The translations under genes and the position numbers were made by a program. DNA of 64,000 nucleotides from NCBI GenBank assembly GCA_021806045.1, contig JAJZDI010000001.1, positions 132,518 to 196,517 of the forward strand, written 5' to 3'. This DNA is from Actinomycetes bacterium. GTDB lineage: Bacteria; Actinomycetota; Acidimicrobiia; Acidimicrobiales; RAAP-2. The number at the start of each line of letters is the position of its first letter. Position 1 is the stretch's first letter. The notes below the pieces were generated by a model, which was not told where the DNA came from, ran no database searches, and saw nothing but the letters and a program-made list of their open reading frames with translations. Shown here piece by piece: positions 1,137 to 6,546 of the stretch.

Positions 1137-1357
1137 TCCGGAACCTGCCGGCCCCTCGGTGGATCACCCCGGACCGGCTTGTGGCCTGGGTCGCCGCCAC
1201 CGCAGCCGCCACCCTGGAGAGGCGAACCGGGGAGGTCACGCACGGGGAGCGTCGGCCGGGTCCACGATCCGTGGGAGGGAGCGCGTCCGATGGATAGTAG
1301 CTCAATATGCTGATGAATCGTATCGTGTGGAGTCGATAGATAGTAGCGTAGAATGTG
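1137..1357. promoter_or_regulatory. AT-rich intergenic region with putative promoter and direct repeat
   Basis: About 220 bases between the esterase and the first DUF4143 ATPase. The first 150 bases are ordinary GC-rich sequence without a recognisable gene. Bases 1291-1357 are strikingly AT-rich for this genome and contain the octamer GATAGTAG twice (1293-1300 and 1339-1346). TAGCGT at 1344-1349 lies 8 nt before the ATG at 1358, the same spacing seen at other putative leaderless starts in the window. The repeat could be an operator overlapping the promoter; that is inference. Confidence 0.45.
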
Positions 1358-2650
1358 ATGTCGCCATCGGAGAGCCGCCTGCCTCACTACCGGACCCGGG
1401 TCGTCGACGCCGAGCTCGACGCCCTGCTCCCGTTCCTGCCGGCCCTCAGTCTGGAGGGGCCCAAGGGGGTCGGCAAGACTGCGACGGTCACCGAACGCGC
1501 CGGCACGGTGGTTCGCCTCGACGATCCGGCAGTGCTCGAGGTGATCGTTGCTCGACCGGCCCGGTTGGCCGACGGGGTGGCACCCATCGTCATCGACGAG
1601 TGGCAGCGCTTCCCGGTGTCGTGGGACGTCGTGCGCCGTGCGGTCGACGAGGATCCATCGCCCGGCCGATTCCTGCTCACCGGCTCCGCCACCCCGATCG
1701 ACAAGCCGACACATTCGGGCGCCGGTCGCATCGTCCCGATCCGCATGAGGCCGCTCACGCTGGCCGAACGCGGCGTGGCCACTCCGACAGTGTCGCTGGC
1801 CACGCTGCTGACCGGTGCCCGCCCCACGCTCGGTGGCACCTCCGACGTGACACTGGAGAAATACACGTCGGAGATCCTGGCGGGTGGGTTCCCGGGGATG
1901 CGCTTCGACGATCCCCGGTCCCGACGCGTCGCGCTCGATGGCTACATCGAGCGCATCGTCGACAGTGATCTACCCGAACTGGGCGTCACCGTACGCCGGC
2001 CGGCAACACTCCGCCGGTGGATGCGGGCCTACGCAGCAGCCACCGCCACGACCACCTCGTACGACAAGATCCGCAACGCGGCGACCGGTGGCGAGGACGA
2101 CAAGCCAGCGAAGACCACGACCATCGGTTACCGGGAAGCCCTCAGCCGCCTGTGGATCCTCGACGATCTCGATGCGTGGGCGCCGACTCGCAACCACCTC
2201 CGGCGGCTGGTTGGCGCGCCCAAGCACCACCTGGTCGATCCCGCACTCGCCGCTCGTCTTCTCGGGCTCGATGCCACCGCACTGCTCGCCGGCCAGGGAC
2301 CTGGCATCCTCCTCCGAGACGGAGCCTTCCTCGGGGCGCTCTTCGAGTCGCTTGCCACCCAGGCGGTGCGCGTCTTCGCTCAGGCGGCGGAGGCGAGCGT
2401 GGCACACCTGCGCACGATGGGCGGCGAGCGCGAGGTCGACCTGCTCTCCGTCCGCGGGGACCAGCGGGTCGTGGCCTTCGAGGTGAAGTTGACCGAGACG
2501 GTGTCCGACGGCGACATCCGTCATCTGCGGTGGCTGGCCGGCATGCTCGGCGAAGACCTCCTCGACGCGGTGGTCCTCACCACAGGGCGCCAGGCGTACC
2601 GTCGGACGGACGGAGTCGGTGTTGTTCCGCTGGCACTCCTCGGCCCGTGA
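1358..2650 (+). CDS. DUF4143-type AAA ATPase (first copy)
   Basis: P-loop ATPase of about 430 aa combining an N-terminal AAA_14 domain with a C-terminal DUF4143 domain. The Walker A motif GPKGVGKT is near residues 33-40, the Walker B segment is PIVIDEWQRFP, and a sensor-like LLTGSATP follows. The C-terminal EVDLLSV...VVAFEVKL segment resembles the E/D-x-K core of PD-(D/E)XK nuclease folds, as is usual in this family. The biological role of these proteins is unsettled; they are frequent in mobile or accessory regions. A GTG at 1355 directly precedes the ATG at 1358. I prefer ATG because TAGCGT then sits 8 nt upstream and there is no Shine-Dalgarno. It differs clearly from the second DUF4143 protein at 3812-5281. 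Confidence 0.8.
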   Translation: MSPSESRLPHYRTRVVDAELDALLPFLPALSLEGPKGVGKTATVTERAGTVVRLDDPAVLEVIVARPARLADGVAPIVIDEWQRFPVSWDVVRRAVDEDPSPGRFLLTGSATPIDKPTHSGAGRIVPIRMRPLTLAERGVATPTVSLATLLTGARPTLGGTSDVTLEKYTSEILAGGFPGMRFDDPRSRRVALDGYIERIVDSDLPELGVTVRRPATLRRWMRAYAAATATTTSYDKIRNAATGGEDDKPAKTTTIGYREALSRLWILDDLDAWAPTRNHLRRLVGAPKHHLVDPALAARLLGLDATALLAGQGPGILLRDGAFLGALFESLATQAVRVFAQAAEASVAHLRTMGGEREVDLLSVRGDQRVVAFEVKLTETVSDGDIRHLRWLAGMLGEDLLDAVVLTTGRQAYRRTDGVGVVPLALLGP

Positions 2651-3811: not shown

Positions 3812-5281
3812 TTACTCGAGCATGAGTGCTACCAGCGGGGCGGGAATGGCCCAGCTGGGGTGGTCGAGGTCGAGCAGGCTTTTGGTGGCGAGAATCCCCC
3901 GATGGAACTTGTTCTCGATGACCTTTGCTTCGCTCCGCCACCCCTGGTCGACCCATTTCCCCTCGATCGGTACCGATTCCAGGGTGGTCCCGCCGGAGGG
4001 TACCGCCACGGGCACAAGATCGATCTCGTTGCCCGAACCGGTGCGGGTGTAGCCGAGGGTGTCACCGGCCACCCAGCGGCCCTCGTCGAGAAGGTCGATC
4101 CTGCGGGCTAGGGCCACTCCGAGGGCCTGTTCGGTGAGAGCTGACATCTGGGGTGGGCGCAGACCGGCGCGCAGCCGGCTGGGCATCCACCCGAGGATCG
4201 GGTCGACCAGGTACAGCTTGGGCTGGGAGCCGGTGACCGGGCGGCCGCTGTCGTCATGGTGGCGGCACCACAATGCTCCGAATCCCGAAACGAGACGGTT
4301 GAGACGCCCTGCCGTGACAGGTCGGGTCCACCCGAGCGCCTCGGCGGTGTGGGCCACGTTCAGCGGGCTGGTGGCGCGCTCAGCGAGCTGTTCGAGGAAC
4401 AGCGGCAGCGACTCGGGTGGGCCCTCGAGGTTGACGTCGCCGCGAAGCCACGCAGCCAGGTCGCGGACATAGTCGATGCTGACCGCCCCGCATCTGGTGT
4501 GCTCGGCGACAGCACGGGGGAACCCTCCGCAGCTGAGGTAGTCCTGCCAGGCCAGATCGTAGCCGTCCACCTCGAAACGCAGCCCGTCCAAGGTCGCGGC
4601 GACTTCGGGGCTCTGCAGCTCGGCGGGGTGGACAGCTTCGGGTAGCAGGAGCGCTGGGCGGGTGGCGGTGGCGAAGTCCCTGAAGGTCATCGGCAGCAGG
4701 TGACGGACCCGCCGCAGGCCTGCCGAACCTGCCCGCCCGGCGAGCAGGTTCCCGGCGATGTCTTCATCCTCTCGCCAGCGGCTTCCGGTTACCACCACGG
4801 TGTCGTCTCCGACAGCGGTCCCGTCGCGCGACGCCTTGACGATGGCGGTCCAACCCGCGATCGCGCTGACCTCGTCGAGCAGCCAGATCCGGGCGCGGGG
4901 GGCAACGAGATCGGCTGGGCGGGTGAGCTCCCGTCCGAGGGTGAATGCCCGTCGCAGATCTCGTGCGGCCATCCCGTCGCAGGGGACGTGGATCACCTGG
5001 AACGGCTGAACGTCTGTCCGGCCACAGAGCTCAGCTGCGAGGTCCAGCAGGGCGACGCTCTTGCCGACCCGGCGAGGGCCGGTCAGCACGATCAGGGAGT
5101 CCCCGACGGGACCCGTCGCCAGGTCGTTCAGGACCGAAGGGCGGTAGCCGAGGTCGTGGCGAGCCCGGTCACGAATCAGCCGGTGCGATCGTACAGCGTC
5201 GACCGGGTCGTGACCCGCCGCAGCGGCACGCCACCAGGGGTTCGCTTCGGTCAGTATCCTCCGGATCTCGTCGTCCCTCAC
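3812..5281 (-). CDS. DUF4143-type AAA ATPase (second copy)
   Basis: Predicted ATPase of 489 aa (506 if the upstream ATG at 5332 is used). It has Walker A GPRRVGKS, Walker B RIWLLDEVS, a VVVTGSRWRE sensor segment and a C-terminal GNEIDLVPV...IEGKW region typical of the DUF4143 nuclease-like domain. The GTG at 5281 (start VRDDEIRRIL) is preferred because the 17 residues before it are proline- and cysteine-rich and unlike the family. The function is unknown; family members are often called ATP-binding proteins and occur near mobile elements or toxin-antitoxin-like loci. A 33-bp tandem repeat lies about 60 bases upstream of the chosen start, where an operator would be expected. It is not a recent duplicate of the 1358-2650 gene, being longer and different in sequence. 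Confidence 0.78.
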   Translation of the reverse strand: MRDDEIRRILTEANPWWRAAAAGHDPVDAVRSHRLIRDRARHDLGYRPSVLNDLATGPVGDSLIVLTGPRRVGKSVALLDLAAELCGRTDVQPFQVIHVPCDGMAARDLRRAFTLGRELTRPADLVAPRARIWLLDEVSAIAGWTAIVKASRDGTAVGDDTVVVTGSRWREDEDIAGNLLAGRAGSAGLRRVRHLLPMTFRDFATATRPALLLPEAVHPAELQSPEVAATLDGLRFEVDGYDLAWQDYLSCGGFPRAVAEHTRCGAVSIDYVRDLAAWLRGDVNLEGPPESLPLFLEQLAERATSPLNVAHTAEALGWTRPVTAGRLNRLVSGFGALWCRHHDDSGRPVTGSQPKLYLVDPILGWMPSRLRAGLRPPQMSALTEQALGVALARRIDLLDEGRWVAGDTLGYTRTGSGNEIDLVPVAVPSGGTTLESVPIEGKWVDQGWRSEAKVIENKFHRGILATKSLLDLDHPSWAIPAPLVALMLE

Positions 5282-5713
5282 GGACCCCACTGTAGCGATA
5301 GGACAACAGGGGCGGGGGGGTTTGGGGCTCACTGGATAACAGAGATGTGGGGGTATACGAAGAGCGAGGTGACAGAGGGTGGGGGGTATCCACCCAGCGA
5401 GGTGACAGATGGGGCGGGGTCATGGTCTGGCAACTGCCACGGCCACGGTGAAGGGCCCACTGCCGCAGCCGGGAGGAGAGCGGCCACCCACGGTGGTGCT
5501 CAGTCGCGGGTGCCCGAGCGCCCTATCCGTCGATCTGTCGCGCGTGCGGCAAGAGCAACAGCCTCTTCAGGACCGTCCAGATGAGGAGTTCGGCAGCCCG
5601 GCTCGGGACCTCCGAGCCACCCTTCTCGCGGATGATGCCGCCGCCGATGCAAGAGAAGACCACCGTGCTGAAATGGGAAAGAGGTACAAGGCCACGTCTG
5701 CAAGGATCGGGAC
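5282..5713. other. 432-base region without a confident gene
   Basis: Between the start of the minus-strand DUF4143 gene and the plus-strand LOG gene. It holds the 33-bp tandem repeat (5339-5424) and, beyond that, about 290 bases in which several short frames are open on both strands without recognisable domains. Base composition becomes less GC-rich toward 5700. It could contain a decayed gene, but nothing I can name. Confidence 0.5.
5339..5424. repeat. 33-bp tandem direct repeat, about 2.6 copies
   Basis: Three consecutive units with a period of 33 bases begin at 5339, 5372 and 5405. The 14-mer AGCGAGGTGACAGA occurs at 5363-5376 and 5396-5409. GACAGAG or ACAGAG begins each unit and is followed by a G-run and GGTAT (GGTCAT in the third). 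There are no spacers of unrelated sequence, so this is not a CRISPR array. Its position directly upstream of the minus-strand ATPase suggests regulatory sites. Confidence 0.7.
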
Positions 5714-6328: not shown

Positions 6329-6460
6329 AAGCCGACGGCCGATTCTCCAAGCGCACCCCTACGTGTCAGGCTGACGTGAGACGCCCGCAGCAGACCACCA
6401 CGGGCCTACAGCGAGGGGTTTCGTAACCTCGAGGCCCCCACTTTCGTAAGGACCCCCCAG

Positions 6461-6546
6461 CGGAGGAGGTGGGATTTGAACCCACGGTGGGTTGCCCCAC
6501 ACACGATTTCCAGTCGTGCCGATTCGGCCGCTCTCGCACTCCTCCG
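6461..6546 (-). tRNA. tRNA-Ser (anticodon GGA)
   Basis: The reverse strand from 6546 to 6461 folds as a long-variable-arm tRNA. The acceptor GGAGGAG pairs with CTCCTCC, discriminator G, anticodon loop CTGGAAA (GGA), and the T-arm contains GGTTCAAATCC. CCA is not encoded. Its length of 86 nt and the variable arm fit tRNA-Ser. Confidence 0.93.

Follow-up and report, generated by a model that had tools for sequence, protein, structure and literature searches.

A short array of direct repeats placed immediately before an ATPase gene raises the question of what the repeats are for and which protein reads them. We address this question for a minus-strand gene in a 64,000-nucleotide stretch of an Actinomycetes bacterium contig (JAJZDI010000001.1), referred to here as the window. 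A preliminary description of this DNA had reported about 2.6 units of a 33-bp tandem repeat some 60 bases before a DUF4143 ATPase, and had likened them to an operator array. The repeat itself is real. Tandem Repeats Finder returned 5349-5420 with a period of 33, 2.2 copies and a score of 88, and AGCGAGGTGACAGA occurs in exact copies at 5363-5376 and 5396-5409. The 150 bp upstream of the gene (L007) have a repeat score of 23.2 at period 33, which was reached by 0/200 dinucleotide shuffles and by 0/28 other segments of the same locus. The array is longer than had been described, as minus-strand positions 5423-5292 divide into four 33-mers in exact register without indels, the promoter-proximal one of which had been missed. 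Each unit carries a C run followed by TCTGTCACC or TCTGTTATC, and the last unit has CCTGTTGTC. The features at this locus are as follows.

5391-5423, minus strand: array unit 1 (distal), 33 bp, placed by register, Tandem Repeats Finder and the exact AGCGAGGTGACAGA copies
5358-5390, minus strand: array unit 2, 33 bp, placed by the same three lines of evidence
5325-5357, minus strand: array unit 3, 33 bp, more degenerate, placed by register
5292-5324, minus strand: array unit 4 (promoter-proximal), 33 bp, sharing 3 bases with the -10 element, placed by register
5289-5294, minus strand: probable -10 element TACAGT, 7 nt before the start codon, supported by TANNNT in orthologues
3812-5281, minus strand: AAA_14 ATPase with a DUF4143-like C-terminal part, 489 aa from GTG 5281, supported by Pfam, PADLOC and alignment

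The start codon was placed at GTG 5281-5279, where all 15 aligned sequences have RDD and then E or Q; the mechanical list of open reading frames begins this frame earlier, at 5332. Our placement agrees with the start implied by the 60-base gap reported earlier, but most of that gap is filled by unit 4. Because unit 4 ends at 5292, inside TACAGT (5294-5289), the array lies on and just upstream of the promoter, which is probably leaderless.

The earlier label of DUF4143 ATPase holds for the ATPase part, an AAA_14 domain (PF13173) scoring 50.5 bits against a gathering cut-off of 27, whereas the DUF4143-like part (PF13635) stays below the Pfam cut-off at 15.0 versus 28.1 bits. A PF13635 match at E 0.1 is reached by 7 of the 15 aligned sequences. 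The Walker A core and Walker B residues D136/E137 are invariant in the alignment, as are E419, D421, E440 and K442, a pattern (E-x-D...E-x-K) that we read as a PD-(D/E)XK nuclease motif. PF25213 (HVO_A0261_N), which we take to be a winged helix, was matched by 4/15 sequences (best E 0.0018); the presumed winged-helix segment matched no DNA-binding family when searched alone, and the AlphaFold model has a mean pLDDT of 51 beyond the ATPase part and below 50 in the presumed winged helix. No sequence relative was found among solved structures, and none in phage records, plasmids or viral contigs, the last scanned for both ATPases of the window with a few short peptide patterns. Each of the 15 aligned proteins has a match to PADLOC profiles of PDC-S01 (window ATPase 4.2e-15, a partial match over residues 46-273), membership being judged here by profile match without PADLOC's own cut-offs. 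In the accessible part of its report, PDC-S01 is a phage-defence candidate in which an ATPase is fused to the PD-(D/E)XK superfamily, ranks fourth by frequency among the defences of prokaryotes, with 39,480 genes counted, and belongs to a set of candidates for most of which validation is still pending (PMC12988326). By analogy with this label, the window ATPase may have a defence role.

The gene was present in 16/172 genomes of its family, its own genome counted, in a family-level search, and a scan of named genomes gave 22 loci that include Nocardioides, Millisia and the cyanobacteria Vulcanococcus and Cyanobium. The best period was 32-34 bp in 29 of the 31 scored orthologue upstream regions. 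The score was reached by at most 2/200 shuffles in 24/31 regions, the most distant of which precedes a 36% identical protein. The other seven were reached more often (L011, 160; L021, 41; L034, 16; L020, 13; L042, 6; L016, 3; L035, 3 of 200), that is, by at least 13 shuffles in 4/31. The array scored above every other segment of its own locus in 21 orthologues and was matched or beaten in 10. Rows left unscored were L014 (start unassigned, with G-run repeats seen by eye), L044 (start likewise unassigned) and the fragments L022, L040, L041 and L043; L028 is the same locus as L008.

While the period is kept, the unit sequence varies by lineage: CCCCCTTTTGGCAGG is found in L039, CCCCCCTAGTCTGTGG in L032 and a TTTGTCAGGT-like sequence in L035 and L036, and the units of L015 and L016 have a G-run in place of the C-run. 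Copies within L026, L032 and L039 are almost the same over the full unit, and L039, from Nocardioides sp. Iso805N, has three near-perfect units. A TANNNT hexamer lies 5-8 nt before the start in 22/29 orthologues (L020 and L021, with uncertain starts, being left out), compared with 4.7% at control offsets; it is absent from L017, L031, L034, L035, L038, L039 and L042. The idea that the 33-bp unit itself would recur next to other DUF4143 genes fails when taken literally, because the core is private to this locus and units differ between lineages; the array layout recurs instead. The preliminary description had also staked its reading on the repeat being present upstream of orthologues, and there the layout is kept and the unit sequence is not. 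Repeated sites that lie on or next to the promoter of their own gene and persist in orthologues are what an operator array consists of, and that interpretation gains support from a constant-period array before most scored orthologues and before many other DUF4143 genes. By separate observation, L017, L025, L033 and L042 have in-frame stops or truncated frames, yet their upstream period is 33-34 bp.

The wider DUF4143 family was surveyed across the phylum, in which PF13635 matches occur in 41/119 genomes at 114 listed places. The survey took 89 of the 114 (those left out were mostly short or fragmentary frames, with a few long ones), and 86/89 genes could be scored upstream, L085, L087 and L095 being the exceptions; at least L066 was anchored on the P-loop of a neighbouring gene by the motif rule. 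Under a strict rule (upstream repeat score reached by no more than 2/200 shuffles), 38/86 genes have an upstream array and 48/86 have no significant one, and at the looser threshold of 10/200 shuffles the count is 50/86. Control segments inside the same DUF4143 genes gave 2/87 under the strict rule and 5/87 at the looser one, and TetR genes of the same phylum gave 2/30 and 4/30, respectively. A rerun allowing shorter periods gave 39/86 upstream, 2/86 inside genes and 2/30 for TetR; taking one gene per 60%-identity cluster left 30/65 upstream arrays versus 2 in the control, and an earlier run under a narrower rule had given 23/47. Chance or low complexity is ruled out as an explanation by the shuffles together with the two kinds of control. 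Significant periods were 22-24 bp in 19/38 arrays and 32-33 bp in 10/38, with a few at 39-40 bp and elsewhere. That 29/38 fall within 21-24 or 31-34 bp, which are 8/56 of the tested periods (binomial 1.3e-17, with the bins chosen post hoc), is as expected for sites on one helix face.

Arrays of this kind also occur on plasmids. Twelve plasmid loci were chosen by hand for taxonomic spread from 228 matching records (L172 was scored from the start of the match and not from the annotated start), and 7/12 have strict arrays, all with a period of 22-23 bp. They come from two Bacteroides plasmids and from Prosthecochloris, Novosphingobium, Pseudosulfitobacter, Pseudomonas and Skermanella, and span Bacteroidota, Chlorobiota and Pseudomonadota. 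In the Bacteroides plasmid loci L165 and L167, what is presumably the core promoter, as judged by motif, lies downstream of the array, an arrangement that fits activation as well as repression. Upstream repeats were likewise scored in the DUF234 sister architecture (L194-L223; 4/30 loci could not be scored and L211 was dropped for a wrongly cut region), where they occur in 8/25 upstream regions versus 1/25 inside genes. Four of these eight arrays have periods of 15-16 bp and several are built of dyads such as TAACAT...ATGTTA; we treat the DUF234 promoter repeats as a lead only.

The window holds a second, clearer member of the family, with repeats of its own.

1289-1301, plus strand: GATGGATAGTAGC, the more distal of two repeat copies before the second ATPase, period 46
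1335-1347, plus strand: GATAGATAGTAGC, repeat copy nearer the gene, spaced 46 bp (2 x 23) from GATGGATAGTAGC, period 46
1355-2650, plus strand: second ATPase with a clear DUF4143 domain (PDC-S01 1.7e-74; PF13635 82.9 bits, above the cut-off)

The repeats of this second gene (L133) were reached by 3/200 shuffles, just outside the strict rule, and they differ from those of the 33-bp array. Its unit is most similar to that of L103, which precedes a 58% identical protein in another genome. A scan of viral contigs with a few short peptide patterns found no relative of the second ATPase.

Which protein reads the array was approached through the specificity of the units. The 14-base core occurs exactly twice in its own genome, each time within the array, and once more elsewhere with one mismatch; a shared regulon is not supported for exact core units. 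In the informative genomes G572 and G574 the core pattern matches only at the array; G573 (the genome of L026) gave no match, because the L026 unit departs from that pattern. A looser pattern gave 17 matches in the window's own genome, of which the array accounts for 3 and a repeat cluster on contig C11 for 7. Set against 7 control matches, it does not separate signal from noise. The cluster, at 31834-33673 of C11 (G000), contains CCCCCACCTCTGCCACC or a one-base variant seven times at steps of 137-558 bp and is perhaps repetitive coding sequence.

Unit similarity was compared over 54 loci (at most 10/200 shuffles, periods up to 50 bp), including 7 plasmid loci. Between genomes, its median was 0.611 for the 5 pairs with at least 70% protein identity, 0.519 for the 49 at 50-70%, 0.490 for the 30 at 40-50% and 0.451 for the 1100 below 30%, with pairs at 30-40% not above background (0.445). 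Unrelated pairs within one genome had a value of 0.472 (19 pairs), which is exceeded by cross-genome pairs of 40-70% identity (p 0.0045); it is itself above the 0.451 of unrelated pairs from different genomes (p 0.023), a minor effect of host or composition. Paralogues within G512, G472 and G491 have mostly different units, and L106 or L110 shares its unit with plasmid locus L164 from a different phylum. In the flanks of 28 orthologue loci no neighbouring ORF cluster occurs in more than 5, so that no partner regulator is evident; the most widespread clusters resemble, by eye, translations of tRNA flanks. The units were also compared with the proteins of the 33-bp family (21 proteins). Covariation is strongest with the ATPase part (residues 1-230; partial 0.52, 0/500 permutations), in particular, over exploratory segments, with residues 1-40 and 181-240. 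It is lower for the nuclease part (0.27, 5/500) and does not support the presumed winged helix (residues 291-360) as the array reader (0.10, 103/500). The covariation thus does not single out a DNA-reading domain.

Taking together the computed array, its position, a period kept while the sequence diverges, its occurrence across the family and a unit similarity that rises with relatedness, we judge it reasonably probable that this is a self-cognate operator array acting on the promoter of its own gene, with the encoded ATPase as its likely binder. There is strong support for interpreting the repeats as putative protein-binding sites on one helix face, because the period is constant while the sequence diverges; 33 bp corresponds to about three helical turns. 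Action at the gene's own promoter is supported by position. That the reader would be the encoded ATPase is somewhat better than an even prospect, as argued by the different units of paralogues together with the shared units of related proteins, by core copies at the array only and by the lack of a recurrent ORF cluster in the flanks. In the proposed mechanism, four binding sites at 33-bp steps would lie on and just upstream of a leaderless promoter, and the PDC-S01-family (AAA_14/DUF4143) ATPase would assemble cooperatively along them and set its own expression, probably as an autorepressor. Autoregulation of type Ia par operons by ParA takes the form of repression. By analogy with that system (PMC8465637), and because the last unit overlaps the -10 region, binding may well repress here, with activation as the alternative.

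Iterated operators and self-regulating ATPases are already known kinds. In the accessible part of its report, ParA of the F plasmid (type Ia par) is a winged-helix P-loop ATPase that binds cooperatively to promoter repeats and autoregulates (PMC8465637). The window locus resembles it in combining a P-loop ATPase with repeats over its own promoter, binding by the window ATPase being a prediction. It differs in that ParA, encoded in a par operon, binds inverted-repeat motifs that overlap, with hexamers at a 28-bp spacing (PMC8465637), whereas the window ATPase is a single gene of a different ATPase class with a nuclease-like domain and 33-bp direct repeats. Two further systems, as described in the accessible parts of their reports, are similar in one respect each. 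BldC of Streptomyces forms cooperative multimers on DNA direct repeats, but this small protein is MerR-like, not an ATPase (PMC5859096). In Deinococcus a direct-repeat array lies upstream of a parAB operon with a P-loop ATPase; that array is linked to maintenance of secondary genome elements (PMC7671480), and no such role is indicated for the window array. The accessible part of the PDC-S01 report does not mention a cis array, and "direct repeat" has 0 occurrences in it (PMC12988326). We found no description in the open-access library searched of a recurrent, clade-specific and helically quantised array before this ATPase-nuclease family.

The array could instead serve a host regulator whose gene lies elsewhere, as an operator or as an activator site, with no binding by the ATPase. 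Such a regulator would suit the promoter position, DNA binding by the ATPase is a prediction, covariation does not indicate the presumed winged helix, and unrelated units of one genome are slightly more alike than those of different genomes. We nevertheless regard it as unlikely, since a regulator of the host would not be expected to leave paralogues of one genome (G512, G472 and G491) with mostly different units while related ATPases share units across genomes and even phyla (L106 or L110 with L164), nor to leave exact core copies in the array only. In another alternative the repeats belong to a small mobile gene and are the working site of its ATPase, for partition or recombination or as an iteron, with any promoter role secondary. 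It draws on the sporadic distribution of the gene (16/172 family genomes) and its presence in cyanobacteria and several actinobacterial groups, which imply horizontal transfer, and on the resemblance of direct repeats beside an ATPase gene to iterons and parS-like sites. The array is tied to the start codon, however, and no replication or partition gene recurs in the flanks, which makes this distinctly improbable. IS21-like terminal repeats of a transposon end were likewise considered and dropped, as the array tracks the ATPase start codon in orthologues.

Two remaining explanations do without protein sites at the promoter. Neutral minisatellites generated by slippage might change in copy number, as between L009 (three units) and the near-identical L011 (one), where either real contraction or assembly collapse is possible. 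They would not be expected to hold a period of 32-34 bp despite sequence divergence, to stay in a fixed position or to cluster across the family at helical periods with no such excess in controls, and we consider this origin very improbable. Repeats acting as RNA in a CRISPR-like manner, as transcribed guides or a leader structure, are suggested by the repeat-plus-spacer look of the more degenerate units, but are scarcely credible. The -10-like hexamer 5-8 nt before the start in 22/29 orthologues puts the array upstream of the probable transcript, and in L026, L032 and L039 it is the whole unit that is nearly identical between copies.

The self-cognate operator array allows a wider extension, which we offer tentatively and hold to be rather doubtful, in which PDC-S01 ATPase-nucleases would be self-addressed immune switches. 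Each ATPase would recognise a direct-repeat address private to it, which moves together with the gene and diverges in sequence with the protein clade, its helical period being kept. The array-bound enzyme would be silent and low in number until infection titrated, modified or competed for the address or the nucleotide state, leading to release and induction. If so, numerous copies, kept apart by their private addresses, could share a genome without interfering with one another; 14 DUF4143 matches, fragments among them, were counted in one genome. The DUF234 sister architecture may then follow the same principle with its periods of 15-16 bp. For the operator array itself, a clade-specific cis-element of quantised period across phyla provides a defined candidate ligand for a protein without a known substrate. 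Binding assays, the expression switch and the specificity code become directly testable, and array and ATPase together could serve to divide the family into groups of like specificity.

Some related loci merit separate mention. Thermus TT_P0211 (AAA_14, DUF4143) had RNA 6.6-fold up with plasmid DNA in an Argonaute-positive strain, according to the accessible part of the report (PMC4406477). The presumed plasmid gene has one dyad, TGAATGACTATCATTCA, before its start and no clear array, so we do not count it as support. A DUF4143 subfamily from five genera (L070, L073, L099, L100 and L102) has a common 22-bp dyad unit like TACTCAA...TTGAGTA, two of these five loci being outside the strict rule, and a relative from Thermus oshimai (L193) has a dyad that is related to it but different. 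Near the window ATPase there is a tRNA-Ser gene at 6460-6545; several orthologue loci show tRNA-flank translations by eye, and the flanks of L009 and L011 an integrase-like ORF, also by eye, as in genomic islands.
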